Source of the DNA: Streptomyces pristinaespiralis | GTDB taxonomy: Bacteria > Actinomycetota > Actinomycetes > Streptomycetales > Streptomycetaceae | Length of the DNA: 64,000 nucleotides | Direction of reading: 5' to 3' | Assembly (NCBI RefSeq): GCF_001278075.1 | Contig: NZ_CP011340.1 | Span: 7,561,501-7,625,500, forward strand | Shown here: piece by piece, positions 20,216 through 51,141 of the stretch | How positions within the stretch are numbered: the stretch's first letter is position 1 | Layout of the letters: every line of letters begins with the position of its first letter | Translations under genes and position numbers: made by a program | Notes under the pieces: model-generated | The model's input: the letters and a program-made list of their open reading frames with translations, nothing else | Databases searched by the model: none | Told to the model about the DNA's origin: nothing

Positions 20216-20250
20216 GTCCGAAATATTGTGCACAGTTCGGGATACCGAAC
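20216..20250. promoter_or_regulatory. Composite IclR-type operator 1 (GH2 side)
   Basis: Two 16-bp half-units starting 19 bp apart: GTCCGAAATATTGTGC (20216) and GTTCGGGATACCGAAC (20235), the second a near-perfect palindrome. It is about 120 bp before the GH2 start. The same two-box, 19-bp arrangement recurs nine more times in the window. Confidence 0.7.
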
Positions 20251-20313
20251 ATTCATGCCGTGGGGCGAGGTGCGAGGGCTGGTGCCCGACGGGTCGCTCG
20301 GTTACGGTCTGCC

Positions 20314-20348
20314 GTCCGGGGTATCGCATGGTGTTCGTAATCCCGAAC
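20314..20348. promoter_or_regulatory. Composite IclR-type operator 2 (importer side)
   Basis: GTCCGGGGTATCGCAT (20314) and GTTCGTAATCCCGAAC (20333) start 19 bp apart. It is nearer to the plus-strand importer gene at 20477. Confidence 0.65.
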
Positions 20349-20414
20349 GTGATGCCGGGGATTTGTGGCCGTCCAAACCGTTGACGCGGTCTCTCGGGCA
20401 CCCCTACATTTCGT

Positions 20415-20428
20415 GGCAAGCGCTTTCC
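20415..20428. promoter_or_regulatory. LacI/CcpA-type operator before the second ABC importer
   Basis: GGCAAGCGCTTTCC is an imperfect palindrome centred on GC, 49 bp before the ATG at 20477. Its inner 12-mer (20416-20427) is the exact reverse complement of GAAAGCGCTTGC at 29477-29488. A nearby TGAAACGATTCA (20429-20440) is also symmetric. The rest of the 20096-20476 gap holds only these boxes and the two composite operators. Confidence 0.6.
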
Positions 20429-20476
20429 TGAAACGATTCATTCACCATTCATCCATCATTGGCGAGAGGGTGCATC

Positions 20477-21760
20477 ATGCGTATGTCCAGGCATGTGGAG
20501 AGGCGGACCTTCCTCAAGGCGGCCGGCGCGAGCCTGGCCGGTGCGGGACTGACCGCCGCCGGCTGCGGCGCCGGCAGCGGCTCGTCCGGCGGGCCCGTCA
20601 CCATCCGCTACGCCTGGTGGGGCGCGGACGACCGGGCGAAGAAGATCAACCGGACGGTCGCCCTCTTCGAGAAGAAGCACCCGAAGATCAAGGTCAAGAC
20701 GGACTTCCAGCAGTACGGCGATTTCTGGAAGAAGTTCAACACCCAGGCGGCGGGCGGCAATCCGCCGGACGTCTTCCAGAACGCCATCGGCTTCCTGCGG
20801 AAGTACGACGCCAAGCGCGTCCTGCTCGACCTCGACGCTCAGGCGAAGAAGGGCAACCTGGACCTCGGCGACTTCCGGGCCGGACTCGAGAAGTTCGGGG
20901 TGGTCGACGGCAGACTGCTCGGCGTGCCGGTCGGCTCCAACTCCATGGGCCTGATCATCGACGAGCGGGTCTTCGAGAAGGCCGGCGTCACCCCGGCCCC
21001 GGGCTGGACATGGGACGACTGGGACGACGCCCTCGTCAAGATCCACGACAAGGCCGGGGTCGCGGGCGACTCGGGCCCCTTCGGCATCATGTACCTCTAC
21101 GACCTGATCCTCCGCCAGAACGGCAAGGCCTTCTTCACCGAGAAGGGCCTCGGATTCACCGAGAGCGACCTCGTCCCGTACTGGACCGAGTCGATGAAGC
21201 GCGTCAGGACGGGCCTGTACGCGGACCAGAAGAAGGTCGAGCAGATCAAGCCCAAGTCCGCCCTCGCGGCGGGGCTCGCCGGCGGCGAGTTCACCTGGGA
21301 CAACTTCACGGCCCGCTACTCCGCCGAGGGCAAGAGCTCGTACGCCATCGCCCCCATCCCCACCGCCGACGGCAAGAAGACCGGCCAGTACCTCGGTTCG
21401 CTGATGCTCAGCGGCAGCGCCCGCACCAAGCACCCCGCGGAGGTGGCCACCTTCATCGACTTCATGGTCCACGACCCCGAGGTCGGCCGGATCATGGGGT
21501 ACGACCGCGGCGTGCTCTCCACCAATGAGCAGTACGAGGCGTTCGACCCCACCGACCCGGTCAGCAAGAAGATCGCCGCGTACGAGAAGCAGATCGCCGC
21601 CGCCGGCACGCTGGAGACCATCACCCCCCACCCCGCCGGCGCGGACGTCGTCGAGGCCGCGTTCCTGCGGATCGCCGCCGACATGGCGCTCGGCAAGGCC
21701 CCCGTCGAGGAATCCGCGCGGCAGTTCTTCACCGAGGCGAAGACGGCGCTCGGCTCCTGA
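20477..21760 (+). CDS. Sugar-binding lipoprotein of the second ABC importer
   Basis: A 427-residue solute-binding protein. The N-terminus has a twin-arginine-like RRTFLKAAGASLAGAGL core and ends in a lipobox-like TAAGC, so it is probably a Tat-exported lipoprotein. The mature region has VTIRYAWWGADDRAKKINRTV and the two-lobe family 1 layout with PVGSNSMGLIIDERVF at the hinge. GAGAGGG lies six bases before the ATG at 20477. It opens a four-gene operon with two permeases and a YesL-like protein. Divergent GH2 and downstream PL26-type lyase suggest a pectic oligosaccharide (galactose- or rhamnogalacturonan-derived) as ligand; this is inference. Confidence 0.9.
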   Translation: MRMSRHVERRTFLKAAGASLAGAGLTAAGCGAGSGSSGGPVTIRYAWWGADDRAKKINRTVALFEKKHPKIKVKTDFQQYGDFWKKFNTQAAGGNPPDVFQNAIGFLRKYDAKRVLLDLDAQAKKGNLDLGDFRAGLEKFGVVDGRLLGVPVGSNSMGLIIDERVFEKAGVTPAPGWTWDDWDDALVKIHDKAGVAGDSGPFGIMYLYDLILRQNGKAFFTEKGLGFTESDLVPYWTESMKRVRTGLYADQKKVEQIKPKSALAAGLAGGEFTWDNFTARYSAEGKSSYAIAPIPTADGKKTGQYLGSLMLSGSARTKHPAEVATFIDFMVHDPEVGRIMGYDRGVLSTNEQYEAFDPTDPVSKKIAAYEKQIAAAGTLETITPHPAGADVVEAAFLRIAADMALGKAPVEESARQFFTEAKTALGS

Positions 21761-22740
21761 TGGGAACGCCACCCGTGACCCAGCTCGAGGAATCCGTGCG
21801 GCAGGTGGCGGACAAGGCCCCTGCCGCCGGCACGACGCCCTCGCCCGTCCGCCGCCGCGGACGCAAGGACGGCCTGATCGGCTACCTGTTCATGTCGCCC
21901 TGGATCGCCGGCTTCCTGCTGCTCACCGCGGGACCGATGGTCGCCTCCCTCTACTTCGCCTTCACCGACTACAACCTCTTCGACTCCCCGAAGTGGATCG
22001 GCCTCGGCAACTTCTCCGAGATGTTCGCCGACCCGCGCTGGCGCACATCGGTCGAGGTCACCGCCAAGTACGTCCTCATCGGGACGCCGCTGAAGCTGCT
22101 CCTCGCCCTCGGCGTCGCGCTGCTGCTGGCGCAGAGCCGGCGCGGACAGGCCTTCTACCGGGCCGCCTTCTACGCCCCCTCGCTCGTCGGCGCCAGTGTG
22201 TCCGTCGCCATCGTGTGGCGCGCCCTGTTCTCCGACGACGCGGTGGTGGACCGGGCCCAGACGTTCCTCGGCATGGACGTCGGCGGCTGGATCGGCGACC
22301 CCGCCTGGGTCCTCTACTGCCTGGTGGCACTGACCGTCTGGCAGTTCGGCGCGCCGATGGTCATCTTCCTGGCCGGACTCAAGCAGGTGCCCAAGGAGCT
22401 GTACGAGGCGGCCCAGGTCGACGGCGCCGGACCGTGGCGGCGCTTCTGGCACATCACCCTGCCGATGATCTCGCCGGTGATGTTCTTCAACGTCCTGCTG
22501 GAGACCATCCATTCGTTCCAGATCTTCGGATCGGCCTACATCATGAGCAACGGCAGCTGCGGACCCGCGGACGCCACGCTCGTCTACACCTGCTACCTGT
22601 ACCAGCAAGGCTTCGAGAACAGCCGGATGGGCTTCGCGTCCGCCATGGCGTGGATGCTGCTGATCGCCGTCGGCCTGGTCACCGCGGTGCTGTTCTGGTC
22701 CCAGCGCCGCTGGGTGCACTACGAGGAGGCGTCCCGATGA
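21760..22740 (+). CDS. Carbohydrate ABC importer permease (MalF/LplB type)
   Basis: A 326-residue permease with six main membrane segments, the first being IGYLFMSPWIAGFLLLTAGP. The EAA loop is PKELYEAAQVDGAGPWRRF. The ATG shares a base with the preceding stop (TGATG), so translation is coupled. No ATPase is encoded nearby; a shared MsiK-type protein is expected. Confidence 0.92.
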   Translation: MGTPPVTQLEESVRQVADKAPAAGTTPSPVRRRGRKDGLIGYLFMSPWIAGFLLLTAGPMVASLYFAFTDYNLFDSPKWIGLGNFSEMFADPRWRTSVEVTAKYVLIGTPLKLLLALGVALLLAQSRRGQAFYRAAFYAPSLVGASVSVAIVWRALFSDDAVVDRAQTFLGMDVGGWIGDPAWVLYCLVALTVWQFGAPMVIFLAGLKQVPKELYEAAQVDGAGPWRRFWHITLPMISPVMFFNVLLETIHSFQIFGSAYIMSNGSCGPADATLVYTCYLYQQGFENSRMGFASAMAWMLLIAVGLVTAVLFWSQRRWVHYEEASR

Positions 22741-23597
22741 GCGGCACGGTCAACACCAGCGCGCGCCGCGGCGGCGGGTCACTGCTCTGGCACGTCGGTG
22801 CCCTGGCGCTGCTCGCCGTGGTCCTCTATCCGGTGATCTGGGTCATCGGCGGCTCCCTGAAGCCCAGCGACGACATCATCGGCAGCCTGGACCTGTTCCC
22901 GACCGATCCCATCGTCGAGAACTACCGGCGGCTGACCGACGGCATCGCTGACATCCCCATCACCACCTTCTTCGTCAATTCCACCTTCCTCGCGGTCGGT
23001 TCGGTGGCCGGCGTACTGCTGTCGTGCTCGCTGGCGGCCTACGCCTTCGCCAAGATCCGGTTCCCCGGGCGGAATCTGATGTTCGCGCTGATGATCGGCA
23101 CGCTGCTGCTGCCGTACCACGTACTCCTCATCCCGCAGTACGTGCTGTTCCAGAAGCTGGAACTGATCAACACCTATGTGCCGCTGCTGCTCGGCAAGTA
23201 CCTCGCGACCGACGCCTTCTTCGTCTTCCTCATGCTGCAGTTCATGCGGAACCTGCCGAGGGAGCTGGACGAGGCCGCCCGGCTGGACGGCTGCGGTCAT
23301 CTGCGCATCTACTGGTCGATCGTGCTGCCGCTGTGCCGGCCGGCCCTGATCACCAGTGCCATCTTCACCTTCATCAACGCGTGGAACGACTTCATGGGCC
23401 CGCTGATCTACCTGAACGAGCCGGAGAAATACACCGTCTCGCTCGGACTGAAGATGTTCATCGACCAGGACGCCGTCGCCGACTACGGCGGCATGATCGC
23501 CATGTCGCTCGTCGCGCTGCTGCCCGTGCTGGCCTTCTTCCTCGCCTTCCAGCGCTACCTGATCGACGGCATGGCGACCTCGGGCCTGAAGGGCTGA
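22737..23597 (+). CDS. Carbohydrate ABC importer permease (MalG type)
   Basis: A 286-residue permease overlapping the preceding gene by four bases (ATGA). It has about six membrane helices, an EAA loop reading PRELDEAARLDGCGHLRIY and the conserved FINAWNDFMGPLIYLN segment. It completes the membrane channel of this importer. Confidence 0.92.
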   Translation: MSGTVNTSARRGGGSLLWHVGALALLAVVLYPVIWVIGGSLKPSDDIIGSLDLFPTDPIVENYRRLTDGIADIPITTFFVNSTFLAVGSVAGVLLSCSLAAYAFAKIRFPGRNLMFALMIGTLLLPYHVLLIPQYVLFQKLELINTYVPLLLGKYLATDAFFVFLMLQFMRNLPRELDEAARLDGCGHLRIYWSIVLPLCRPALITSAIFTFINAWNDFMGPLIYLNEPEKYTVSLGLKMFIDQDAVADYGGMIAMSLVALLPVLAFFLAFQRYLIDGMATSGLKG

Positions 23598-27378: not shown

Positions 27379-28308
27379 TCACCAGGACCGCAGGTGGGAC
27401 TCGATCCGCCTGCGGTCCAGGACGCCGTCGGCCACCACGATCCGGTAGCGGTACGAGAAGGCGGCACCGGAGGGGAGCGTGAACTCCTCGAAGAAGGCCC
27501 ACGAGAGGGCGACGGTCGGGGTCGGCTCCGACCGTACGAACCAGTGGGACGGGCTGACGGCGGCCTCGTTCTCCGGGGCGTGGGCGAAGACCAGGGTGCT
27601 GTGCGCGTCGACGCCGTCGTGCTCGCCGGTGAAGGCGAGCCAGGGCGCGGCGCGGCCCATCATGTCGGCGGCCCCTGCCTCGCCCGCGCCGCCGTGCCCG
27701 TCCGGGCCCACGACGTCGCCGCCGGTGAGGTCGCGGGGCCCGCGCCAGTGCAGCCCGGTGTAACCGGCCGCCTGCCGCCCGGCGGTCGTCGGTGAGCCGA
27801 ACCGCAGGGGCTCCGGGCGGGTGTTGGTGAGGTGGATGGACCAGTCGAGCGCCCAGGATCCGTCCGCCGGCTCGACGGAGTGGACGGTGAGCGTGCGCCG
27901 CTCCCGTGCCCATTCCGCGCCGCCGTTCTCGATCCAGGTGAGCCGCTCCCGCATCGTCAGCCGGTTCCCGGCCACGCCGACGGCGTCGAAGCCGTCGTGC
28001 CGCATCCACCCGATCCGGTCGGGCAGCGGCAGATAGCCCTCGCCGTGGACGTAGGAGTTGCCGCCCCAGAAGTTCTGCCCCGACAGATGGCTCGCGGTCA
28101 TCTGAAGGCCTTTGTGCCAGCGGTGGTCGCTCGGCCGGTATCCCGTCACCAGGCGGCCGGAGAGGGTCCGCAGCGGGTGCACGTACGGCTTGCGGGACTC
28201 GAAGGGCTCAGGGTCGGGGCGGTAGACGTACGTCATCAGCTCCACGCCGCCGTGCGACACGACGACCTTCTCACCGTGCGTGTGGGTCACGGTGACCGGA
28301 GCGCTCAT
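27379..28308 (-). CDS. PmoA-like (DUF6807) protein
   Basis: A 309-residue protein without signal peptide. It carries HPLRTLSGRLVTGYRPSDHR followed by WHKGLQM, then GLHWRGPRDLTGG near the middle and a C-terminal WFVRSEPTPTVALSWAF. These match the DUF6807 group often annotated as methane-oxygenase PmoA, a misleading name since no membrane helices are present. The fold is a galactose-mutarotase-like beta-sandwich. It is translationally coupled to the Gfo/Idh/MocA gene (4-bp overlap), a pairing seen in sugar clusters of actinobacteria, so it may act on the oxidoreductase substrate or product. The true activity is unknown. Confidence 0.7.
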   Translation of the reverse strand: MSAPVTVTHTHGEKVVVSHGGVELMTYVYRPDPEPFESRKPYVHPLRTLSGRLVTGYRPSDHRWHKGLQMTASHLSGQNFWGGNSYVHGEGYLPLPDRIGWMRHDGFDAVGVAGNRLTMRERLTWIENGGAEWARERRTLTVHSVEPADGSWALDWSIHLTNTRPEPLRFGSPTTAGRQAAGYTGLHWRGPRDLTGGDVVGPDGHGGAGEAGAADMMGRAAPWLAFTGEHDGVDAHSTLVFAHAPENEAAVSPSHWFVRSEPTPTVALSWAFFEEFTLPSGAAFSYRYRIVVADGVLDRRRIESHLRSW

Positions 28309-29447
28309 CGGTGTCCGCCGGCCGTGTCCGCGGGGGCCCAGGCGGGGTGCCCGCCGTGCATGGCGGTGTAGTACGGATCGTCGGACGTGATCTCACCGGC
28401 TCGTACGGGCATGCCGGTGAAGGCCGCCTTGTAGAGCGCGGCGACGAACTCCAGTGTCCGCCGCGCGTCGGGGCCGCTGCCCGGCGGGCGGGTCCCGGCA
28501 CGCATCGCCGCGAGGACGGACTCCAGTTGCGCGGAGTGCGAGCTGGGCAGATCCGCCGCGGGCGTCCGCCACGTCTCGACGCGGCGCTCGTCGGCGGCGG
28601 CGTGCGGGGCCGGCGTGTAGACCCAGTCGGCGTTGGAGTGGCCGTAAAGGTGGGTGAGTTCGACGGTGGCGTCGGAGCAGTCGATGCGGATCCGGCTGAC
28701 CTCGTGCGGTGACACGACGCTGTTGACGACGGTGGCCATGGTGCCGTTCGCGAAACGGACGAGCGCCGTCGAGACGTCCTCGCTCTCGACGTCGTGCACG
28801 AGCCGGCCCGCCATCGCCCGTATCTCGGCCCAGTCGCCGAGCAGGTGCAGCAGCAGGTCCATCTGGTGGATGCCGTGCCCCATGGCGGGGCCGCCGCCCT
28901 CCGTGGACCAGCGGCCCCGCCAGGGGACGGCGTAGTAGGCGCCGTCGCGGTACCACGTCGTCTGGCAGTGCGCGACGAGCGGCGTGCCCAGTTGCCCGGT
29001 GGTGAGCAGTGCGCGGGCGTGCGCCGCGCCGGAGCCGTAGCGGTGCTGGAAGACGACGGACGCGTAGGGGCCCGGGGAGCCGTCCGGACCCTCGGCCGCG
29101 GCGATGGCGTCGTACTCGGCGAGCGACAGGCACAGCGGTTTCTCGCACAGCACCCAGGCGCCCGCCCGCAGCACCTCGACGGTCTGTTCGCGGTGGAAGG
29201 CGGGCGGGGAGCCGAGCAGCACCAGGTCGGGGCGGGCGGTGGCGAGCATCTCGTCGAGACGGGTGAAGCCGTCGACCCCGTTCCCCGCGGCGGCGCGGAA
29301 GGCGTCGAGCTGTGCCGTGTTCACGTCGACGGCGGCGACCAGTTCCACCTCTGCACAGTGGTCGGCCAGGGCGGGGAGGTGGCTGCCGTGGGCGATGGCT
29401 CCGGTGCCGACGACGGCGGCACGCAGACGGCCGCGGGGACGTGTCAT
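28305..29447 (-). CDS. Gfo/Idh/MocA-family sugar oxidoreductase
   Basis: A 380-residue NAD(P)-dependent dehydrogenase. The Rossmann start is AAVVGTGAIAHGSHLPAL, the catalytic Lys lies in VLCEKPLCLS and the C-terminal beta-sheet domain contains GPAMGHGIHQMDLLLHLLGD with the usual His/Asp pair. It would oxidise or reduce a sugar or sugar derivative. It is the first gene of a two-gene unit with the PmoA-like protein. A LacI-type box (GAAAGCGCTTGC) lies 30 bp upstream of the ATG, identical to one before the second ABC importer, linking this enzyme with that importer. Confidence 0.88.
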   Translation of the reverse strand: MTRPRGRLRAAVVGTGAIAHGSHLPALADHCAEVELVAAVDVNTAQLDAFRAAAGNGVDGFTRLDEMLATARPDLVLLGSPPAFHREQTVEVLRAGAWVLCEKPLCLSLAEYDAIAAAEGPDGSPGPYASVVFQHRYGSGAAHARALLTTGQLGTPLVAHCQTTWYRDGAYYAVPWRGRWSTEGGGPAMGHGIHQMDLLLHLLGDWAEIRAMAGRLVHDVESEDVSTALVRFANGTMATVVNSVVSPHEVSRIRIDCSDATVELTHLYGHSNADWVYTPAPHAAADERRVETWRTPAADLPSSHSAQLESVLAAMRAGTRPPGSGPDARRTLEFVAALYKAAFTGMPVRAGEITSDDPYYTAMHGGHPAWAPADTAGGHR

Positions 29448-29594: not shown

Positions 29595-29610
29595 GTTCGG
29601 CATTGCGAAC
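29595..29610. promoter_or_regulatory. Single IclR-type palindrome
   Basis: GTTCGGCATTGCGAAC matches the 16-bp box of the composite operators. A weak partner, GGTCGACCAACCGTGC, starts 19 bp on at 29614, so this may be an eleventh, degenerate composite site. Confidence 0.45.
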
Positions 29611-29679
29611 GCTGGTCGACCAACCGTGCCGGGTTGTGCGCAAAGCGTTGACGGCCGCCGACGTGGTTCCTAGGGTGCC

Positions 29680-29714
29680 GTTCGAAGTTCTGATCGCTGT
29701 CCGGTATATCGAAC
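29680..29714. promoter_or_regulatory. Composite IclR-type operator 3 (secreted GH51)
   Basis: GTTCGAAGTTCTGATC (29680) and GTCCGGTATATCGAAC (29699) start 19 bp apart and end 18 bp before the ATG at 29733, a position suited to repression. Confidence 0.75.
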
Positions 29715-29732
29715 GACTTCGAGGATGTGCGT

Positions 29733-34885: not shown

Positions 34886-34890
34886 GTCGG

Positions 34891-38638: not shown

Positions 38639-38652
38639 GAGCAACCTCTATT

Positions 38653-38784: not shown

Positions 38785-38819
38785 GTTCGCTCTGCCGATC
38801 AAGCGTTGATATATCGAAC
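38785..38819. promoter_or_regulatory. Composite IclR-type operator 5 (iclR autoregulation)
   Basis: GTTCGCTCTGCCGATC (38785) and CGTTGATATATCGAAC (38804) start 19 bp apart and end 12 bp before the IclR gene start, overlapping its probable promoter. This supports autoregulation and the naming of this protein as the regulator of all ten sites. Confidence 0.7.
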
Positions 38820-40523: not shown

Positions 40524-40558
40524 GTTCGGGGAGTCGAACGTCGTTCGTCATTTCAGCG
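40524..40558. promoter_or_regulatory. Composite IclR-type operator 6 (distal, arabinan operon)
   Basis: GTTCGGGGAGTCGAAC (40524) and GTTCGTCATTTCAGCG (40543) start 19 bp apart. It is one of two composite sites before the GH43 gene at 40692. Confidence 0.65.
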
Positions 40559-40597: not shown

Positions 40598-40632
40598 GTT
40601 CGAAGTTGCGAGCGAGTGTCGAAATTTCGAAC
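40598..40632. promoter_or_regulatory. Composite IclR-type operator 7 (proximal, arabinan operon)
   Basis: GTTCGAAGTTGCGAGC (40598) and TGTCGAAATTTCGAAC (40617) start 19 bp apart, 59 bp before the ATG at 40692. The second box contains the perfect palindrome GTTCGAAATTTCGA on the other strand. Confidence 0.75.
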
Positions 40633-41746: not shown

Positions 41747-43276
41747 ATGCCCGACAGCAACGCCCGCTTCACGCTCGACCCCGCCTTCACCGTGGGCGAG
41801 GTGAACCCCCGTCTCTTCGGCTCCTTCGTCGAGCACCTGGGCCGCTGCGTGTACACCGGCATCTTCGAACCGGACCACCCGTCCGCCGACGAGGCCGGGC
41901 TGCGCACCGACGTCCTCGAACTGGTCCGGGAACTGGGCGTCACCGCCGTCCGCTACCCGGGAGGCAACTTCGTCTCCGGCTACCGGTGGGAGGACTCCGT
42001 CGGCCCCGCCGAGGAGCGGCCGCGCCGCCTCGACCTCGCCTGGCGGTCGACGGAGACCAACCGCTTCGGACTGAGCGAGTTCATGGCGTTCCTGGGGAAG
42101 ATCGGGCCGCAGGCGGAGCCCATGATGGCCGTCAACCTCGGTACGCGGGGCGTGGCCGAGGCACTTGAGCTCCAGGAGTACGCCAACCACCCCGCCGGCA
42201 CCGCCCTTTCCGATCGGCGCATCGCCCACGGCGACAAGGACCCGTTCGGCATCCGTCTGTGGTGTCTCGGCAACGAGATGGACGGTCCCTGGCAGACCGG
42301 GCACAAGACGGCGGAGGAGTACGGCCGCCTCGCCGCGGAGACCGCCCGGGCGATGCGGCAGATCGACCCCGGCCTCGAACTGGTCGCCTGCGGCAGCTCG
42401 AGCCAGGCCATGCCCACCTTCGCCACCTGGGAGGCGACGGTCCTCCAGGAGGCGTACGACCTCGTCGACCACATCTCGCTGCACGCCTACTACGAGGAGA
42501 TCGACGGCGACCGCGACTCGTTCCTCGCCTCCGCCGTGGACATGGAGTCGTTCATCGAGAACGTCGTCGCCACCTGCGACCACGTCGGTGCCCGGCTCAA
42601 GTCGAAGAAGCGCATCCAGCTCTCCTTCGACGAGTGGAACGTCTGGTACATGAAGCGGTTCGAGGCGGAGAACACGGCCAACCCCCTGGACTGGCCCGAG
42701 GCCCCGCGGCTGCTCGAGGACAACTACAGCGTCACCGACGCCGTCGTCTTCGGCTCGCTGCTCATCGCCCTGCTCCGGCACGCCGACCGGGTGACCGTCG
42801 CCTGCCTCGCGCAGCTCGTCAACGTGATCGCCCCGATCATGACGGAGCCCGGCGGCCCGGCCTGGCGGCAGACCACGTTCTTCCCCTTCGCCCAGGCCTC
42901 CCGCTACGGGCGCGGCGAGGTCCTCGACGTACGCGCCGACTCGCCCACCTACCGGACGGCCGCCTACGGCGAGGTCCCGCTGCTGCACGCCACCGCCGTA
43001 CGCGACAAGGACACCGGCGCCGTCACCGTCTTCGCCGTCAACCGGAGCCAGAGCGACCCGCTGCCGCTCCGGATCGCCCTCACCGGGCTGGACGTCACCC
43101 ACGTCGAGGAGCACAGCGTCCTCAGCGACGCCGACCCGGAGGCCCGCAACACCCTCGCGGAGCCCGAGCGCGTCGTGCCGCACGCGGGTGAGGGGGCCGT
43201 GCTCGCGGGCGGCGTCCTCGACGTCACCCTCGAGCCCCTGTCCTGGAACGTGATCCGGCTGGCCGCCGGCGCCTGA
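41747..43276 (+). CDS. abfA: Intracellular GH51 alpha-L-arabinofuranosidase
   Basis: A 509-residue cytoplasmic enzyme, the classic length for AbfA. The barrel shows FGSFVEHLGRCVYTGIF, RYPGGNFVSGYRWEDSVGP, acid/base Glu 177 in LWCLGNEMDGPWQ and nucleophile Glu 296 in LSFDEWNVWY, with a C-terminal beta-sandwich. There is no signal peptide. It would release L-arabinose from imported arabino-oligosaccharides. It lies 26 bp after the GH43 gene and 111 bp before the importer binding protein. Confidence 0.96.
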   Translation: MPDSNARFTLDPAFTVGEVNPRLFGSFVEHLGRCVYTGIFEPDHPSADEAGLRTDVLELVRELGVTAVRYPGGNFVSGYRWEDSVGPAEERPRRLDLAWRSTETNRFGLSEFMAFLGKIGPQAEPMMAVNLGTRGVAEALELQEYANHPAGTALSDRRIAHGDKDPFGIRLWCLGNEMDGPWQTGHKTAEEYGRLAAETARAMRQIDPGLELVACGSSSQAMPTFATWEATVLQEAYDLVDHISLHAYYEEIDGDRDSFLASAVDMESFIENVVATCDHVGARLKSKKRIQLSFDEWNVWYMKRFEAENTANPLDWPEAPRLLEDNYSVTDAVVFGSLLIALLRHADRVTVACLAQLVNVIAPIMTEPGGPAWRQTTFFPFAQASRYGRGEVLDVRADSPTYRTAAYGEVPLLHATAVRDKDTGAVTVFAVNRSQSDPLPLRIALTGLDVTHVEEHSVLSDADPEARNTLAEPERVVPHAGEGAVLAGGVLDVTLEPLSWNVIRLAAGA

Positions 43277-43387: not shown

Positions 43388-44728
43388 ATGCATCCACATC
43401 GCCTCAGCCGGCGCCGCGCCCTCGCCGGCGGCATCGGCGCCCTGGCCGCCACCGCGGCCCTCGGCCCGCTGTCCGGCTGCGCCGCACCGTCCACCGCCGC
43501 CGGCCCCGGGCAGACCCGCCTGCGGTTCTGGCACCTGTTCGGCGGCGGGGACGGCGTCAACATGCAGGGCATGCTCGACGCGTTCCGTGCCGAGCACCCG
43601 GACGTCTCCCTGGAGGCGGCCACCCTCCAGTGGGGTGCCCCCTACTACACGAAGCTGGGCATGGCAGGCGCCGGCGGACGCGCGCCCGAACTGGCCGTGC
43701 TGCACCTGGCCAGGCTCGCCGGGTTCGCCCCCGGCCGGCTCCTCGACCCCTTCGACCTCGACCTCCTGGCCGACCTCGGGGTCCGCGAGCAGGACTTCCC
43801 GGCCGGCATCTGGCAGCGCGGGCAGGTGGCCGGCGAGCAGTACGCCGTCCCCCTCGACACCCACCCCTTCGTCCTCTACTACCAGACCGAACTGTGCGAG
43901 AAGGCCGGACTCATGGCGGGCGGCAAACTCAAACGCATCGAAGGGGCCGAGGAGTTCGCCGACGCGCTGCGCGCCGCGAAGAAGGTGACCGGTCAGCCCG
44001 GCCTCGTCACCGAGACCCTCGGACCCGACTGCATCACCCCGTGGCGGCTGTTCGCCACCTTCTACTCGCAGACCGGCGGCAAGGTCCTCTCCGAGGACGG
44101 GAAGCGCCTCGCCCTCGACGACACCAAGGCGCTGCGCGTGCTCGAGTACATGGCCGGCCTCGCGGAGGAGGGGCTGATGGTGCGCCGCGCCGACTACGGC
44201 GCCTCCGTCGGCATCTTCAACGGCGGGAAGACCGCCTTCCACCTCAACGGCGAATGGGAGATCTCCTCCTTCCGCACCACCGGCATCCCGTTCTCCATGA
44301 CCACCGTGCCCACGCTCTTCGGCCGGCCCGGCACGCAGGCCGACTGCCACGCCTTCGTCCTCCCGCACCAGGCCGACCGCGGCGGCGCGACGAACGAGGC
44401 CGCGCACGAGCTCGTCGCCTGGCTGCTCCGCAACTCCGTCGCCTGGGCCGAAGGCGGCCATGTGCCCGCCTATCTCCCGGTTCTCAAGGACCCCGCGTAC
44501 CTCGAACTGAAACCGCAGTCCGAGTACCGCGGCGCGATCGACGACGTGGCGCTCGACGAGCCCGCCTGGTTCGCCGGCTCCGCCTCCCGGATGTGGATCG
44601 AACTCGGCGCCGTCTTCTCCGGAGTGCTCACCGGATCCCGCAGCCCGCGCGGCGCCCTCACGGAGGCCAAGGCCCGCCTCCGGACCCTCCTCGACACCCC
44701 CGACCCACTCCCCGGAGCCGCGTCATGA
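43388..44728 (+). CDS. Binding lipoprotein of the arabino-oligosaccharide ABC importer
   Basis: A 446-residue solute-binding protein with a twin-arginine signal (LSRRRALAGGIGALAATAAL) and lipobox LSGC. The mature part begins LRFWHLFGGGDGVNMQGML, with PLDTHPFVLYYQTELCEKAG at the hinge and AFHLNGEWEISSFRTTG in the C-lobe. Position between AbfA and two permeases inside an arabinanase operon makes arabino-oligosaccharides the probable cargo. Confidence 0.9.
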   Translation: MHPHRLSRRRALAGGIGALAATAALGPLSGCAAPSTAAGPGQTRLRFWHLFGGGDGVNMQGMLDAFRAEHPDVSLEAATLQWGAPYYTKLGMAGAGGRAPELAVLHLARLAGFAPGRLLDPFDLDLLADLGVREQDFPAGIWQRGQVAGEQYAVPLDTHPFVLYYQTELCEKAGLMAGGKLKRIEGAEEFADALRAAKKVTGQPGLVTETLGPDCITPWRLFATFYSQTGGKVLSEDGKRLALDDTKALRVLEYMAGLAEEGLMVRRADYGASVGIFNGGKTAFHLNGEWEISSFRTTGIPFSMTTVPTLFGRPGTQADCHAFVLPHQADRGGATNEAAHELVAWLLRNSVAWAEGGHVPAYLPVLKDPAYLELKPQSEYRGAIDDVALDEPAWFAGSASRMWIELGAVFSGVLTGSRSPRGALTEAKARLRTLLDTPDPLPGAAS

Positions 44729-45684
44729 CCACCACCACCGCGGCACCGCCGTCACCGGTGAACAAGCGCGCCACCGCCCCCGGCCGGCCGGTCCGCTCCG
44801 TCCACCGCAAGTGGACCGAGCACGGCCTGGTGTTCGTCGCCCCGTTCCTGGTCGTCTACGCGATGTTCCTGATCTGGCCGCTGCTCTCCGGCCTTGGGAT
44901 GAGCATGACCAGCGAGAACATCACCGGAACGGGAGGGGAGTTCGTCGGCCTCGACAACTACGCCGAAGCCGTCGCCGACCCCGACGTCTGGTCCTCGCTG
45001 TGGAACACGGTCTGGTTCACCGTGCTCTCCACCGTCCCGCTCGTCCTCGTGGGTCTCGGACTGGCCCTGCTGTCCCACCAGTTGCGGGTGGTGCAGTGGC
45101 TGTGGCGGCTCAGCTGGTTCGCGCCGTTCCTGCTCCCGTCCGGAGTCGTCTGCCTGCTCTTCGCGCAGATGATCTTCCCGTCCGGCTTCGGCCTGGCCGA
45201 CCAGATGCTGGCCGCCGTAGGACTCGAACCGGGCATCGGATGGCTCAGCGAAGAGCGTTACGCGATGCTCTCGATCGTGGCGACCACCGTCTGGTGGACC
45301 GTCGGCTTCAACTTCCTGCTCTACCTCGCCGCCCTCCAGGCCATCCCCGTCCACCTCTACGAGGCCGCCGAACTCGACGGCGCCGGGGCCTGGAACCGGC
45401 TGTGGCACATCACCCTGCCGATGCTGCGCCGCACCACGGGACTGGTGGTGGTCCTCCAGGTCCTCGCGTCGCTGAAGATCTTCGACCAGGTCTACATCAT
45501 GACCGGCGGCGGCCCGGACGAATCGACCCGGCCGATCCTGCAGTACGTCTACCAACAGGGCTTCACCGGCTACCGCATCGGCTACGCCTCAGCGGTCTCC
45601 TACATCTTCTTCGCCCTGATCCTGATCGTCTCCCTGGTGCAGCCGATGCTGTCCCGGCGCCGAGCTGAGGAGGCCGCCAAGTGA
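44725..45684 (+). CDS. ABC importer permease (MalF type), arabinan operon
   Basis: A 319-residue permease overlapping the binding-protein gene by four bases (ATGA). It has about six membrane helices beginning GLVFVAPFLVVYAMFLIWPL, an EAA loop IPVHLYEAAELDGAGAWNRL and the family segment IFDQVYIMTGGGPDEST. It pairs with the following permease. The ATPase is expected from elsewhere in the genome (MsiK type). Confidence 0.92.
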   Translation: MTTTTAAPPSPVNKRATAPGRPVRSVHRKWTEHGLVFVAPFLVVYAMFLIWPLLSGLGMSMTSENITGTGGEFVGLDNYAEAVADPDVWSSLWNTVWFTVLSTVPLVLVGLGLALLSHQLRVVQWLWRLSWFAPFLLPSGVVCLLFAQMIFPSGFGLADQMLAAVGLEPGIGWLSEERYAMLSIVATTVWWTVGFNFLLYLAALQAIPVHLYEAAELDGAGAWNRLWHITLPMLRRTTGLVVVLQVLASLKIFDQVYIMTGGGPDESTRPILQYVYQQGFTGYRIGYASAVSYIFFALILIVSLVQPMLSRRRAEEAAK

Positions 45685-46580
45685 GCGGTTCCGCCACCAT
45701 CGCCCCCCGACGCGCGCCCCGCGCCGGCTCCGGCGCCGGCCCCGCGGGCCGAAGGCCCCGCTGGAGCGCCGGCCGGATCACCCTGCTCGTCATCGCCCTG
45801 GTCCTCACCGTGGCCTGGCTGATCCCGCTCGCATGGGCGGTCGCCACCTCGCTGAAGCCGGAGGGCGAGACCACGAAGACCCCGCTCGAGTGGATCGGTT
45901 CGCGGATCACGTTCGAGGCGTACAGCAAGGTCTGGGAGTCCGGCGATCTGATGCGCTGGATGATGAACTCCGCGTACATCTCCGTCATGACGACCGTGCT
46001 GACGGTCCTGACCTGCGCGATGGCCGCGTACGGCTTCACCCGCACCGACTTCCGCGGCCGCAAGCTGCTCTACGGACTGGTGCTCGCCGGCATCATGGTC
46101 CCGCCGCAGGTGCTCATCGCCCCCCTGTTCACCGAGATGGTGCAGCTCGGACTCGTCGACACCTACTGGGGAGTGATCCTGCCCCAGGTCGCGGTCCCCG
46201 CCATGGTCTTCATCCTGGTGAAGTTCTTCGAGGGGGTACCCCGCGAGCTGGAGGAGGCCGCGTTCGTCGACGGCGCCGGCCGCTGGCGGGTGTTCTGGAC
46301 GATCGTGATGCCACTGTCCCGGCCGGTGCTGGCCGCTGTCGCGATCTTCACCTTCATCTCCACCTGGAACAACTTCCTCTGGCCGTTCCTGGTGACCACC
46401 GATCCCGGCGGCATGACCCTCCCCGTCGGCCTGGTCAACGTCCAGTCCTCGTTCGGCGTCCGCTACGCCCAGATCATGGCGGCGCTCGTGATCGCCGGAC
46501 TGCCCCTGCTGATCGTATTCATGCTCTTCCAGCGGCAGATCGTGCGCGGTATCGCGCACACCGGTCTCGCCGGCCAGTAG
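45681..46580 (+). CDS. ABC importer permease (MalG type), arabinan operon
   Basis: A 299-residue permease starting at GTG 45681 inside the previous stop (GTGA). It has six main hydrophobic segments, an EAA loop PRELEEAAFVDGAGRWRVF and FISTWNNFLWPFLVTTDPGG near the C-terminus. It completes the importer. Confidence 0.92.
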   Translation: MSGSATIAPRRAPRAGSGAGPAGRRPRWSAGRITLLVIALVLTVAWLIPLAWAVATSLKPEGETTKTPLEWIGSRITFEAYSKVWESGDLMRWMMNSAYISVMTTVLTVLTCAMAAYGFTRTDFRGRKLLYGLVLAGIMVPPQVLIAPLFTEMVQLGLVDTYWGVILPQVAVPAMVFILVKFFEGVPRELEEAAFVDGAGRWRVFWTIVMPLSRPVLAAVAIFTFISTWNNFLWPFLVTTDPGGMTLPVGLVNVQSSFGVRYAQIMAALVIAGLPLLIVFMLFQRQIVRGIAHTGLAGQ

Positions 46581-46636: not shown

Positions 46637-47626
46637 ATGAGCCGCACAGCACTCCTGCCCCGCCCGCTCGCACGCGCACTGGTGTCGATCCCCCTGGCCA
46701 CATTGATGGCCCTGGCTCCGGGTACGGCACTCGCCTACCCGGCGCCGGGGCACGTGACCGGCGACATCGTGGTGCACGACCCCACCATGGTCCGCCGTTC
46801 CGACGGCACCTACCTGCTCTACGCCACCGGCGGCGGACTGGCCATGCGCTCGTCCACCGACCGGGTCGCCTTCCGCGCCGGGGGCTCCGCGTTCCCCACC
46901 GTCCCCTCCTGGTGGAGCCGCTACTCCTCCGTACCGGAGGCCTGGGCCCCCGACATCTCCTACCACGGCGGCAAGTACCTGATGTACTACGCCGTTTCCC
47001 GCTTCGGCTCCAACACGTCGGCGATCGGCTTCGCGACCTCCTCCACCGGAATGCCGGGCAGCTGGACCGACCACGGCATCGTGCACAGCACCGACGCGTC
47101 GAGCGACCACAACGCCATCGACCCGAACCTGTTCGTCGACGACGACGGAACCTGGTGGCTCACCTTCGGCTCCTGGTGGACCGGGATCAAGATGATCCGC
47201 CTCGACCCGGGCACCGGCAAGCAGCACGCCGGTGACAGGACGCGGTACTCCCTCGCCTCCCGGCCCACCGGCAGCCGCGCCGTCGAGGCGCCGCAACTGG
47301 TCAAGCGCAACGGCGTCTACTACCTCTTCGCCTCGTACGACACGTGCTGCGCCGGCACCTCGTCCACCTACAAGATCAAGGTCGGCCGGGCGAGCCGGGT
47401 CACCGGGCCCTACACCGACCGCGCCGGCGTACCGATGATGAACAACGGCGGCACGGTCGTCCTCGAGTCCCACGACCGGGTGATCGGTCCGGGCGGGCAG
47501 TCCGTCATCAAGGACGCCGACGGCCACCTGCTCGTCTACCACTACTACGACGGCCAGGACGGCGGCACCCCCAAGCTCGGGGTCAATCTGCTGGGCTGGG
47601 GCGGCGGCTGGCCGGCCGTCTACTGA
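46637..47626 (+). CDS. Secreted GH43 endo-1,5-alpha-L-arabinanase (second copy)
   Basis: A 329-residue exported paralogue of the GH43 enzyme at 40692. The signal peptide ends near GTALAYP. Catalytic Asp 48 (VVHDPTMV), Asp 162 (HNAIDPNL) and Glu 217 (RAVEAPQL) are all present, as is the Cys-Cys motif SYDTCCAGTSSTYKIKVGR. It lies 56 bp after the importer and closes the operon. The two copies keep the same motifs but differ throughout, so they may prefer branched versus linear arabinan, or endo versus exo attack. Confidence 0.94.
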   Translation: MSRTALLPRPLARALVSIPLATLMALAPGTALAYPAPGHVTGDIVVHDPTMVRRSDGTYLLYATGGGLAMRSSTDRVAFRAGGSAFPTVPSWWSRYSSVPEAWAPDISYHGGKYLMYYAVSRFGSNTSAIGFATSSTGMPGSWTDHGIVHSTDASSDHNAIDPNLFVDDDGTWWLTFGSWWTGIKMIRLDPGTGKQHAGDRTRYSLASRPTGSRAVEAPQLVKRNGVYYLFASYDTCCAGTSSTYKIKVGRASRVTGPYTDRAGVPMMNNGGTVVLESHDRVIGPGGQSVIKDADGHLLVYHYYDGQDGGTPKLGVNLLGWGGGWPAVY

Positions 47627-47688: not shown

Positions 47689-48666
47689 TCAGACTCCTGC
47701 GTCCTCGAAGCGCCGGAGCTCGCCCGGCAGCCGCGAACCGAGCGGCGACATCGCGTCGCCGGCGCCGTGCCGGGCCAGCAGGTCGAGCACCAGCCGGCCG
47801 CGGCGGACCCGCTCACGGGCGGTGCTGAGGACGGTCTCCCGCAGGTGCAGGCCGGAGGGATAGATCGAAGGGGCCTTGGAGAGGCCGAACTTGAGGTAGA
47901 GCGGGGCACCACGGCGGATCAGCTCGGCGATCTCGTACATACGGATGTAGCCGCCGAGGTCGTCAGGCGCCTCCACGTACATGTCCATCGGCGCCCGGCT
48001 CACCCGGCGGATCTGGGTGAGGTGGTCCAGCGTCAGGTCGCTGGGGACGTTGAGGGAGTCGGCGCCGAGCTGCTCGTACACGGCGTACGCGGCGGGGTTG
48101 ACGGGGCCGATGAGTGCGGAGACCTTCAACGTGGTGCCGGCGGGCAGGAGACCGCGCGACCGCGCCCGGTGCAGGGTCCACAGCACCCCCTCGTCGGCGA
48201 CGAGCAGACAGCGCACGCCCAGCTCCGTGGCGCGGACGGCGTCCTCCACGCAGCCGGCGACCGCGTCGTGCCCCCGGGCGCGCAGCCCGCCGCCCCGCGA
48301 GTCGGTGCGGGTGGATCCGCCGATGTCCCAGGTGCCGCGGGGTCCGGTGAACAGGCAGAGCTCGATGTCGCGTTCGGCGGTCGCGTCCACCATCTCCGTG
48401 ATCTCGTCGTCGCCGAGCATCCAGACGCCGCTGCCCTGGCTGACGCGGTGCACGGGGACGTCGAGCCGGGTCGACTCCTTGAGCACCGCGGCCAGCGCCT
48501 CGGGGCCCTCCACGGAGGGGATCTCCACCCGCCAGCGGCCACCGTCGGGGAAGGAGTGCGGGGAGGCGTCGGCGGGGTCGAGGGCGGGGCCCTCGAGCCC
48601 GAGGACGGCGAGGGCGCGTTCACCGGGCCGGCGAGGTGTTGAGCGAGGCATTGCGGACGGGGACAT
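47689..48666 (-). CDS. Uncharacterised TIM-barrel-like protein, paralogue of the chvE-operon protein
   Basis: A 325-residue soluble protein closely related to the product of 37562-38638. Shared blocks include [89 protein letters not shown] and [11 protein letters not shown]. Lysines in the KVSAL and YLKFGLSK strands and acids at several predicted strand ends are conserved, so an active site in a barrel is plausible. It lacks the Pro-rich tail of its paralogue. The ATG at 48666 follows GAGGAG, with a composite IclR-type operator 21 bp upstream. It is probably an enzyme of the oxidative sugar pathway; identity unknown. Confidence 0.75.
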   Translation of the reverse strand: MSPSAMPRSTPRRPGERALAVLGLEGPALDPADASPHSFPDGGRWRVEIPSVEGPEALAAVLKESTRLDVPVHRVSQGSGVWMLGDDEITEMVDATAERDIELCLFTGPRGTWDIGGSTRTDSRGGGLRARGHDAVAGCVEDAVRATELGVRCLLVADEGVLWTLHRARSRGLLPAGTTLKVSALIGPVNPAAYAVYEQLGADSLNVPSDLTLDHLTQIRRVSRAPMDMYVEAPDDLGGYIRMYEIAELIRRGAPLYLKFGLSKAPSIYPSGLHLRETVLSTARERVRRGRLVLDLLARHGAGDAMSPLGSRLPGELRRFEDAGV

Positions 48667-48686: not shown

Positions 48687-48721
48687 GTTCGATATTGCGA
48701 ACAACGTTCGAGACTTTGGGT
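48687..48721. promoter_or_regulatory. Composite IclR-type operator 8 (second TIM-barrel-like gene)
   Basis: GTTCGATATTGCGAAC (48687) and GTTCGAGACTTTGGGT (48706) start 19 bp apart, 21 bp upstream of the ATG at 48666. Confidence 0.75.
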
Positions 48722-48760: not shown

Positions 48761-49807
48761 TCAGGGGTGCAGCAGTACCTTGCCGACCGCGGGGTCGCCC
48801 GATCCCACCAGGCCGATGGCGTACTCGAAGTCGTCGAGCGACAGCTCGTGCGTGACCAGGGGCAGCGGTGTGAGCAGCCCGGCGGCGAAGGCGCGTACCG
48901 CGTGCGCCCAGGCCGCGGGGGTCGCGCCGAACACGGTCTGCACCTCCAGCTGGCGCACCACCAGATCGGTCGGGTCGAGCCCGGCGGCCCCGGCCGCGGG
49001 GATGCCGGTGAGCACCAGGCGGCCGCCGCGCCGCAGCAGACCGGCGGAGGTGCGGGCGGCCGACGCCGAACCGGCGGCCTCGACGACGACGTCGAACCCG
49101 TCCGGCAGGGGCAGTTCGTCCACCGTGCGGTACTCGGTCGCGCCGAAGGCGCGGGCGAGCGCGGCACGGTCCGGCCGGGTGCCGACCATCAGCAGTGCGG
49201 CGGGGGAGCAGGCGGCGAGCAGCTGCACGGCGAGCATGCCGAGCGTGCCCGTGCCCACGACGGCGACCCGCTCACCGGGCCGCACGTCCGCCTTGAGGGC
49301 CGCCGCGGCGACACACGCGGCGGGTTCGAGCAGCGCGGCGGCCGTCAGATCGGCGTCGTCCGGCAGCGGGTGGAGCAGCCGGGCCGGGAGGGTGAGGGTC
49401 GCGGCCATCGCTCCGGCCTGCGTGAAACCCGTCTCCTCGTACCCGGCGCCGCACAGGGTGGTGTCACCGGCGTGGCAGCGGTCGCACACCTGGCAGTTGC
49501 GGAAACCTTCGCCGACCACCTTCCGGCCGACGAGCGAGCCGGGCACGCCGTCCCCGACGGCGGCGACCGTCCCCGACCACTCGTGTCCCGGGGTGACGGG
49601 GTAACGGACGTACCCCTCCGGGCGGTTGCCCTGGAACACCTCCCGGTCGCTGCCGCAGATGCCGACGGCGGCGACGCGGACCTGGGCCTCACCCGGGCCG
49701 GGGCGCAGCGGCGTGTGTCCGGCGAGCCGGAACCGGCCGGGGCCGTCGAGCACGACCGCCCGCGAGGGGGCCGCCGCGCCGCCGGTGCCCGGCGGCGTGG
49801 GGCTCAC
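48761..49807 (-). CDS. Zinc-dependent medium-chain alcohol/sugar dehydrogenase
   Basis: A 348-residue MDR enzyme. Catalytic zinc ligands are seen in VGICGSDREVF (Cys) and VTPGHEWSG (His-Glu). Structural zinc cysteines are partly present in FRNCQVCDRCHAGDTTLC. The Rossmann motif is VAVVGTGTLGMLAVQLL. It would oxidise a sugar or polyol with NAD(P). Its GTG overlaps the dehydratase stop (GTGA), so it is co-translated with a sugar-acid dehydratase. The step is either sugar 1-dehydrogenation feeding the lactonase or polyol oxidation; the former is favoured by context only. Confidence 0.85.
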   Translation of the reverse strand: MSPTPPGTGGAAAPSRAVVLDGPGRFRLAGHTPLRPGPGEAQVRVAAVGICGSDREVFQGNRPEGYVRYPVTPGHEWSGTVAAVGDGVPGSLVGRKVVGEGFRNCQVCDRCHAGDTTLCGAGYEETGFTQAGAMAATLTLPARLLHPLPDDADLTAAALLEPAACVAAAALKADVRPGERVAVVGTGTLGMLAVQLLAACSPAALLMVGTRPDRAALARAFGATEYRTVDELPLPDGFDVVVEAAGSASAARTSAGLLRRGGRLVLTGIPAAGAAGLDPTDLVVRQLEVQTVFGATPAAWAHAVRAFAAGLLTPLPLVTHELSLDDFEYAIGLVGSGDPAVGKVLLHP

Positions 49808-50970
49808 GGCTGCTTCCCCTTCGGGGCGCGCTTCTCCCAGCCCTCGGCCCACAGGTCGAACCGGGCCTGCTGCTGCGGGAATTCGGCGGCCGCGTCGGTG
49901 TCGAGCTCCACCCCGAGCCCCGGTGCGTGGGACAGCTCGAAGCAACCGGTCTCGGGGTCGACCTGCGGGGCGCCCTTGACGACCTTCTTGATCTCGGCGT
50001 CCGCGAAGTCGTTGAAGTGCTCGAGCACCTTGAAGTTCGGGGTGGAGAAGCCGACCTGCAGCGACGCGGCGGTCAGGACGGGGCCGCCCACGTTGTGCGG
50101 TGCGACCAGCATGTAGTGCGTCTCCGCCGTGGCGGCGAGCTTGCGGGTCTCCCAGATGCCGCCGATGTGGCCGACGTCCGGCTGGAGGATGTCGGCGGCC
50201 TGCGACTCGAACAGCTCGCGGAACTCGATGCGGTCGTGAATGCGCTCACCGGTGGCGACGGGCATGTCGACCTTCTCCGCCACCTTCTTCAGGGCCTTGA
50301 GGTTCTCCGGCGGCACCGGCTCCTCCAGCCAGGCCGGCCGGAAGGGGGCCAGCTCGTTCGCCAGCCGTACGGCGGTGGAGGGGGAGAAGCGGCCGTGCAT
50401 CTCGAGCATCAGCTCCGCGTCGGGTCCGATGGCGTCCCGCACGGCCTCGATCAGCGACACGGAGTAGAGCGTCTCCTCGTGCGACAGCTCGTAGTGGCCG
50501 GTGCCGAACGGGTCGATCTTCAGCGCCCGGTACCCGCGCTCCATGACCGTGCGCGCGGCCTTGTGGTAGGCCTCCGGGGTCCGCTCCGTGGTGTACCAAC
50601 CGTTGGCATAGGCCTTGACGCGGTCGTGGACCTTCCCGCCGAGCAACTGCCAGACGGGCACGCCGAGCGCCTTGCCCTTGATGTCCCAGCAGGCCATCTC
50701 CACGCACGCGATGCCGGACATCACGATCTCGCCGGCGCGCCCGTAGTCGCCGTACTTCATGCGGCGCACGAGGTCCTCCACGGCGAACGGGTCGGACCCG
50801 GCGATGTGGTTGGCCTCGGCCTCCCGCAGATAGCCCACCAGCGCGTCGGTGTGGCCCAGCATGCGGGTCTCCCCGATGCCGGTGAGCCCCTCGTCGGTGT
50901 GCACCTGGACGTAGGTGAGATTGCGCCAGGGCGTGCCGATCACATGTGTGCTGATTCCCGTGATGCGCAA
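49804..50970 (-). CDS. Enolase-superfamily sugar-acid dehydratase (mandelate racemase group)
   Basis: A 388-residue enzyme of the galactonate dehydratase-like branch. The capping domain (about 1-125) is followed by the barrel. Lys 151 lies in RALKIDPFG. Mg ligands are Glu 190 (LMLEMHGRF, with candidate acid His 192), Glu 216 (AWLEEPVPPEN) and Glu 242 (ATGERIHDR). Asp 265 and His 292 (QPDVGHIGG, APHNVGGP) form the general-base dyad. It would dehydrate an aldonic acid to the 2-keto-3-deoxy acid. The TTG start at 50970 has GGAG eight bases upstream and a composite operator 19 bp upstream. L-arabinonate is the favoured substrate from context; D-galactonate is the main alternative. Confidence 0.87.
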   Translation of the reverse strand: MRITGISTHVIGTPWRNLTYVQVHTDEGLTGIGETRMLGHTDALVGYLREAEANHIAGSDPFAVEDLVRRMKYGDYGRAGEIVMSGIACVEMACWDIKGKALGVPVWQLLGGKVHDRVKAYANGWYTTERTPEAYHKAARTVMERGYRALKIDPFGTGHYELSHEETLYSVSLIEAVRDAIGPDAELMLEMHGRFSPSTAVRLANELAPFRPAWLEEPVPPENLKALKKVAEKVDMPVATGERIHDRIEFRELFESQAADILQPDVGHIGGIWETRKLAATAETHYMLVAPHNVGGPVLTAASLQVGFSTPNFKVLEHFNDFADAEIKKVVKGAPQVDPETGCFELSHAPGLGVELDTDAAAEFPQQQARFDLWAEGWEKRAPKGKQP

Positions 50971-50988
50971 GGCAGTTGCTCCAGTCGT

Positions 50989-51023
50989 GTTCGATATTTC
51001 GACAGGCGTTCGAAATTCTGCCG
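50989..51023. promoter_or_regulatory. Composite IclR-type operator 9 (dehydratase operon)
   Basis: GTTCGATATTTCGACA (50989) and GTTCGAAATTCTGCCG (51008) start 19 bp apart, 19 bp upstream of the TTG start at 50970. Confidence 0.75.
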
Positions 51024-51106
51024 CGACAGTAGGGACGGAGATGAACGCGTGTCAATGGGGCGCCGGCACGCTTGACCGCTTTTCCGTAGAAGCATAGCCT
51101 GCAGGC

Positions 51107-51141
51107 GTCCGAAATAAGGAACGCTGTCCGATATCTCGAAC
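51107..51141. promoter_or_regulatory. Composite IclR-type operator 10 (semialdehyde dehydrogenase)
   Basis: GTCCGAAATAAGGAAC (51107) and GTCCGATATCTCGAAC (51126) start 19 bp apart, 36 bp upstream of the GTG at 51178. Confidence 0.75.

Follow-up and report, generated by a model that had tools for sequence, protein, structure and literature searches.

Eleven paired operators in a fixed 19-bp register and a predicted IclR regulon for arabinan use in Streptomyces pristinaespiralis

We analyzed a 64,000-nt stretch of the Streptomyces pristinaespiralis genome (bases 7,561,501-7,625,500 of the 8,532,592-bp single contig; hereafter the window) and found eleven paired operators around the gene of an IclR-family regulator. 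We propose that the eleven sites are operators of this IclR protein, which would repress by occlusion the genes for arabinan degradation, sugar uptake and an oxidative sugar pathway and would respond to an arabinose-type inducer; we put the probability of this reading at roughly 0.8. Scans of the window proteins with Pfam and NCBIfam models revealed glycosidases of the glycoside hydrolase (GH) families GH2, GH43 and GH51, two sugar importers and a ChvE-type importer. The same region encodes the IclR regulator, an SMP-30/gluconolactonase protein, a putative sugar-acid dehydratase (mr), an alcohol dehydrogenase (adh), an aldehyde dehydrogenase (aldh) and two familyless paralogues, tim1 and tim2.

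Results

Paired operators in the window

Each site consists of two 16-bp palindromes of the form GTTCG-N6-CGAAC whose centres lie 19 bp apart, a distance of about two DNA turns. An earlier reading made from the letters of the window (the sequence-only reading) had listed ten such sites, and all ten were recovered at the positions in Table 1, with the two boxes exactly 19 bp apart and 1-6 mismatches per box against GTTCGAAATNTCGAAC; however, it had overlooked an eleventh at 29595-29629. According to our gene calls, all eleven sites are intergenic and fall into six regions, five of which hold two sites each. Half-site counts showed that the outermost half-site matches at only 1 of 5 positions at 38653, 40524, 48687 and 50989, and these four sites are therefore three-box rather than four-box operators. 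They carry three alternating half-sites, and one box may be weak (3/5 at 50989). The outer half is also missing at many mr and tim sites of relatives.

To score the sites, we used a matrix trained on other species (80 relatives' loci, with the window left out). The ten known sites and 29595 were the eleven top-ranking pairs of the window, and the next score, 10.8 bits, came from an overlap of one strong box. On leave-one-out, each of the eleven sites ranked first among approximately 63,170 positions, with scores of 17.9-37.3 and a best competing score of at most 6.0. When both boxes were required (each >=-1, sum >=19), 11 pairs were found at spacing 19 and no more than two at any other spacing from 5 to 80. 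A consensus score of T>=17 gave 10 pairs at spacing 19, whereas at the other 50 spacings in the range 10-60 the count averaged 0.56 and never exceeded 3, and five Markov-1 sequences gave no pair at spacing 19 at this threshold. If the weaker box was allowed any score, spacings 7 and 12 equalled spacing 19, which we read as a single strong box overlapping itself.

Genome-wide distribution

A 35-bp operator profile (R1, 48 training rows) was run over the 8.53-Mb genome, with 150 of 2938 first-look candidates scored. At E<=1 it returned 17 rows at 12 distinct places, nine in the window and three outside. Two of the outside places lie between a gene for a GH127-type beta-L-arabinofuranosidase and a LacZ-type GH2 gene, and the third lies between GH62 and GH10 genes; such pairs are thus rare in the genome and not common beside unrelated genes; the opposite outcome would, on its own terms, have refuted the sequence-only reading. 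A pattern of one box plus the inner half-site (<=3 mismatches) had 30 genome matches against 2 for the reversed control; its matches near 970762, 3274261 and 8055612 were set aside, no good matrix pair being found in the stretches taken. Two other patterns were discarded: a single-box scan (<=2 mismatches) was unspecific as a regulon test (312 matches against 82 reversed), and an outer-half-site pattern (62 matches against 3) was not used for naming targets, since many of its matches were isolated.

A weaker pair (19.4 bits) separates an IclR-paralogue gene from a second gene for an aldehyde dehydrogenase. The latter (locus L175, 5004-6563) is a 99% identical copy of aldh, situated approximately 1 Mb away beside this different IclR gene, suggesting a recent duplication.

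Association of the sites with iclR

The window regulator scored 48.2 bits against PF09339 (HTH_IclR; cut-off 22) and 168.1 bits against PF01614 (IclR_C; cut-off 24), which places it in the IclR family. It fell below the PcaR/PcaU/PobR model TIGR02431 (143 against 284.75 bits) and below the equivalog cut-offs of KdgR (165.7/275), BhcR (166.3/350), IclR (116.7/380) and AllR (113.6/406 bits).

We compared 80 named Streptomyces loci with an iclR orthologue (82-86% identical). All 80 have a 19-bp pair 49-142 bp upstream of iclR, so the pair is kept in orthologous loci, and all 80 have the lactonase gene directly after it. Together these loci contain 136 pairs at spacing 19 and at most 15 at any other spacing from 10 to 60. 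In a second genome set, which partly shares genomes with the named one, spacing 19 was the best upstream of iclR in 56 of 57 loci.

Among 61 Streptomyces genomes, an iclR orthologue was present in 42, and R1 matches occurred in 39 of these and in none of the other 19 (114 candidates scored per genome). The three iclR-bearing genomes missed by R1 (G041, G047 and G058) nevertheless have a 19-bp pair by iclR, at 26.3-38.2 bits. A close mr orthologue (E<=1e-150) was found in 40 of the 61 genomes, all of them with iclR; G047 and G058 have iclR without one, and three further genomes passed the mr search cut-off solely through paralogues of 35-45% identity. In a sample of the order, iclR was detected at E<=1e-75 in 92 of 147 genomes and in one of five genera. 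Because the pair stands upstream of iclR in every one of the 80 loci and follows the presence and absence of the gene across the 61 genomes, the protein encoded at 38832-39605 is the candidate binder of the sites, as sequence comparison supports.

The association extends to other genes of the region. Upstream of mr, spacing 19 was the best in 29 of 30 loci, one of which is the window's own. Of these 29, 22 have an mr-proximal pair from outside the training set, while in seven the pair is probably the site of a divergent neighbour (iclR or aldh). The mr gene is accompanied by adh in 29 of the 30 loci. The tim genes of relatives have a 19-bp pair of at least 16.4 bits in 20 of 29 cases.

Phasing of operators and promoters

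Six of the eleven window operators (tim1-chvE, mr, GH51, arabinan, aldh and iclR) begin 0-6 bp past a -10-like hexamer. A strict -35/-10 test was passed by five of the eleven sites, with gaps of 2, 2, 3, 3 and 6 bp; as background, 56 of all 127,880 positions passed it, and 42 of the 2,484 within these six intergenic regions. In relatives aligned by the direction of transcription, the distance from the end of TANNNT to the operator downstream of it is 2 bp at 82 of 86 iclR promoters, 3-4 bp at all 35 importer promoters, 2-4 bp at all 20 GH51 promoters and 2-3 bp at 24 of 30 mr promoters, and TTGMC mostly lies 17-18 bp further upstream. Operators placed 0-6 bp after a -10 element should cover the transcription start, which favours steric repression.

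The sequence-only reading had argued for repression from most sites lying 12-60 bp before a start codon. This describes seven of the eleven (gaps of 8-59 bp); the sites at 20216, 20314, 29595 and 40524 lie 110-147 bp away. Promoter geometry appears to back repression better than the distance to the start codon does.

The sbp2 operator at 20314 has a separate -35/-10 downstream of it, at 20381/20405. We also noted AAGCGCTT boxes, which we take to be typical LacI-family operators, at 20415-20428, just after this -10, and in the -35/-10 spacer of importer or GH51 promoters of several relatives (for example locus L003); dual control of these promoters is possible. The tim2 operator is located just past a strong GC-rich hairpin (48725-48752) that separates it from adh; the 103-nt region folds at -41.1 kcal/mol (z -3.5), raising the possibility of a terminator or attenuator inside the operon.

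Discussion

Evaluation of the repression model and its alternatives

Several observations weigh against the proposed regulon or its mode of action. The claim that all ten sites mediate repression was the least certain part of the sequence-only reading: at lacZ, sbp2, gfo, distal gh43a and tim2, no promoter occupies the phased repressing position, and none was seen there at 22 tim sites of relatives either. The non-fitting sites may act through looping, as a roadblock or in activation. The site of iclR itself fails the strict test; by eye, TAGACT directly precedes it and the -35 is poor. Spacing 19 was the best at just 14 of the 29 tim genes of relatives, and the R1 list at E<=1 lacks the window sites 20216 and 29595; with 114 candidates scored per genome and 150 of 2938 in the genome of S. 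pristinaespiralis, weak sites may have been lost. Seventeen of the 48 R1 rows came from genomes that were later searched, so that positive counts such as 39/42 are partly circular, although the 0/19 is not. The relatives are close, and their counts are non-independent events. In G058, which has iclR and the pair, no lactonase gene was found in the 6.5 kb taken. The enzyme substrates, finally, are assigned from family alone and are best read as candidates.

How far do these points favour other explanations? The IclR protein might act on the same sites chiefly through inducer-dependent activation, or have a dual role, like the haloarchaeal XacR-type proteins; IclR-like regulators of xylose and arabinose genes in haloarchaea are described as activators in PMC11519228, and this also counts against our reading. 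The four sites at 110-147 bp from a start codon and the position of the sbp2 site upstream of a recognisable -35 would suit such a role. However, six of the eleven operators lie just past a -10-like hexamer, over the presumed start, where a bound protein normally blocks transcription, and the same phasing recurs at the iclR, importer, GH51 and mr promoters of relatives. We consider activation unlikely, though it is the strongest of the competing explanations. Ownership of the sites by another IclR paralogue, or sharing with it, seems less likely still. The obvious candidate is the paralogue beside the second aldehyde dehydrogenase gene at approximately 6.56 Mb, since the related pair of 19.4 bits lies in its own promoter region and the neighbouring dehydrogenase is 99% identical to that of the window. 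Yet this paralogue is merely 30% identical to the window IclR, its site is missing from the R1 list at E<=1, and the operators track the window IclR orthologue over the 61 genomes.

We reject the idea that chance or GC-rich composition accounts for the pairs and regard it as highly improbable. The sites were indeed selected by eye and single boxes are common, as the single-box scan showed; at a laxer T>=15, moreover, spacing 19 is unremarkable (15 pairs, with 21 at spacing 39). The spacing, leave-one-out, cross-species and genome-wide tests are nevertheless all contrary to chance, as are the 30 matches of the combined pattern against 2 of its reversal.

Proposed mechanism and pathway

For the occlusive IclR regulon that we prefer, we envisage two IclR dimers, as a tetramer, on one face of the DNA at each tandem operator. 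With a -10 element ending at -7, the bound protein would span approximately -4 to +31, and initiation or promoter escape would be blocked over the transcription start. Breakdown of arabinan or arabinogalactan would supply the inducer, most likely L-arabinose or one of its oxidised intermediates, and release of IclR would switch on the arabinosidases, both sugar importers, the ChvE-type importer and an oxidative pathway for sugar acids. The latter would comprise the dehydrogenase, the lactonase, the dehydratase, the orphan TIM-barrel enzyme and the semialdehyde dehydrogenase (Table 1).

A lactonase, a dehydratase and an aldehyde dehydrogenase fit an oxidative pentose route. The L-arabinose isomerase domain PF02610 was not found in this genome, which we count in favour of the proposed regulon; the domain was likewise not found in 54 of the 61 genomes, including 15 of the 19 without iclR, so the oxidative route is not proven thereby, and this again weighs on the other side. 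A mutual exclusion of isomerase and iclR was considered and dropped, as the cases (3 of 42 iclR genomes, 4 of 19 others) are too few for such a claim.

The tim2 product matched no family in the Pfam and NCBIfam scans. Its predicted structure is an eight-stranded barrel (mean predicted local distance difference test score, pLDDT, 74; predicted template modelling score, pTM, 0.77), and its structural matches are generic barrels, class II aldolases among them. Of the candidates scored, 1495 are homologues of the tim family at E<=1e-5; those listed, 120 in number, are annotated as hypothetical or, where named, as peptidase U32. In relatives, adh occurs alongside tim in 29 of 29 loci and chvE in 25 of 29, with mr also nearby, and tim2 may act after the dehydratase step.

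A more far-reaching picture can be offered tentatively, and we doubt that all of it will hold. In about two-thirds of the sampled Streptomyces (42/61), a single autoregulated IclR tetramer would clamp the transcription starts (approximately -4 to +31) of the genes for arabinan degradation, uptake and oxidative catabolism through operators of two grades, with four boxes at most glycosidases, the importers and iclR and with three boxes at the sugar-acid enzymes; and tim1 and tim2 would be a new enzyme acting after the dehydratase of an oxidative L-arabinose pathway.

The proposal offers a concrete regulon for the use of arabinan and arabinogalactan in Streptomyces, which are degraders of plant litter, and links the orphan tim family of enzymes to a probable step of the pathway. 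The constant phasing of promoter and operator points to a mechanism and could serve laboratory Streptomyces as an inducible promoter design that is ready to use.

Table 1. Operators and genes of the window (window coordinates; bits, scores of the operator pairs)
Feature	Position	Strand	Basis or remark
Paired operator, lacZ (GH2) side of the lacZ/importer-2 divergent region	20216..20250		32.4 bits; no phased promoter
Paired operator, importer-2 (sbp2) side	20314..20348		29.5 bits; genome profile E 0.2
Eleventh paired operator, gfo side of the gfo (-)/GH51 (+) divergent region	29595..29629		20.0 bits; weaker box -0.2
Paired operator at GH51 promoter	29680..29714		36.1 bits; -10 ends 3 bp upstream
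Three-box operator, tim1-chvE-gguA-gguB promoter	38653..38687		30.1 bits; -10 gap 2
Predicted autoregulatory paired operator of iclR	38785..38819		26.0 bits; genome profile E 0.44
Distal arabinan-operon operator, three-box type	40524..40558		21.8 bits; genome profile E 0.89
Proximal arabinan-operon operator	40598..40632		39.7 bits; -10 gap 3; genome profile E 1.3e-5
Three-box operator upstream of tim2, inside the mr-adh-tim2 gene run	48687..48721		32.9 bits
Three-box operator, mr (sugar-acid dehydratase) operon promoter	50989..51023		28.2 bits; -10 gap 2
Paired operator at aldh promoter	51107..51141		37.6 bits; -10 gap 6
lacZ, GH2 beta-galactosidase	17222..20095	-	family scan
Importer 2, solute-binding protein (sbp2) and two permeases	20459..23597	+	family scan
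gfo, Gfo/Idh/MocA oxidoreductase	28305..29447	-	family scan
GH51 arabinofuranosidase with carbohydrate-binding domain; secretion putative (sequence-only reading)	29727..32210	+	family scan
gguB-like permease, start approximate	33647..34894	-	family scan
gguA-like sugar ATP-binding cassette (ABC) ATPase	34891..36453	-	family scan
chvE, sugar-binding protein	36453..37562	-	NCBIfam ChvE equivalog above cut-off
tim1, tim2 paralogue (77% identical)	37562..38644	-	sequence comparison
iclR, IclR-family regulator, 257 aa, proposed binder of the sites	38832..39605	+	HTH_IclR and IclR_C
SMP-30/gluconolactonase family, probable sugar lactonase, 4-bp overlap with iclR	39602..40453	+	family scan
gh43a, GH43, arabinanase-like	40692..41720	+	nearest NCBIfam model AbnA, under its cut-off
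GH51-type arabinofuranosidase	41747..43276	+	C-terminal domain match
Importer 1, sugar ABC solute-binding protein	43388..44728	+	family scan
ABC permease, start approximate	44776..45684	+	family scan
ABC permease after the first permease	45681..46580	+	family scan
gh43b, second GH43	46637..47626	+	domain seen in longer open frame
tim2, orphan TIM-barrel protein	47689..48666	-	no family match; predicted 8-stranded barrel
adh, zinc alcohol dehydrogenase family, candidate sugar 1-dehydrogenase	48761..49807	-	family scan
mr, mandelate racemase/enolase-superfamily sugar-acid dehydratase	49804..50970	-	family scan
aldh, aldehyde dehydrogenase, candidate ketoglutarate-semialdehyde dehydrogenase	51178..52707	+	family scan

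Two further genes lie close to gfo: a PcRGLX-like gene (24442-27366, + strand; family scan), presumably of the rhamnogalacturonan lyase type, and a DUF6807 gene (27379-28308, - strand) beside gfo. Their position next to the Gfo/Idh gene hints at a wider use of pectin.

Comparison with known IclR systems

Suvorova and Gelfand (2021; PMC8222616) describe, within IclR group 1, a subgroup NGT-12-ACN with the 16-bp consensus NGTYCRAW4TYGRACN, in which dehydrogenases of COGs 1012 and 1028 are overrepresented. The consensus GTTCGAAATATCGAAC fits the NGT-12-ACN consensus, and the relatives-only consensus GTTCGAAATTTCGAAC agrees with its full 16-bp form, although many single boxes deviate. The same paper predicts tandem palindromes with 18-22 nt between centres for 94 of 181 orthologous groups, a range that includes the 19 bp of all eleven window sites. 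No word starting with "arabin" occurs in its main text, although its supplementary tables may list this orthologous group, and the fixed -10 phasing seen in the window does not appear in the sections of that paper considered here. Among the titles and abstract openings listed from the open-access literature, none gives an account of the regulon. An IclR-like protein of another Streptomyces is reported to have been recovered by pull-down at the promoters of two xylanase genes and of a xylose isomerase gene, and its authors liken it to an allantoin repressor (PMC12772271, in the part considered here).

In PMC8222616, three-box operators that combine a palindrome with an additional half-site are cited for PcaU, PobR and HmgR, and the tim1, mr, tim2 and distal gh43a operators resemble them. 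However, the window IclR scores under the PcaR/PcaU/PobR subfamily cut-off (143 against 284.75 bits) and is surrounded by sugar genes rather than genes for aromatic compounds. By analogy with tetrameric IclR proteins such as TtgV (cited in PMC8222616), a tetramer on adjacent sites would be the natural reading of the 19-bp tandem. XacR of Haloferax volcanii (cited in PMC11519228) is likewise IclR-like and linked to xylose and arabinose catabolism, but it is an archaeal activator. The parts of PMC8222616 considered here already describe IclR operators of the tandem and three-box types, but this regulon and its orphan enzyme may be undescribed. We conclude that the architecture is of a known kind and that the phasing of the operators to their promoters and the orphan enzyme most merit further attention.

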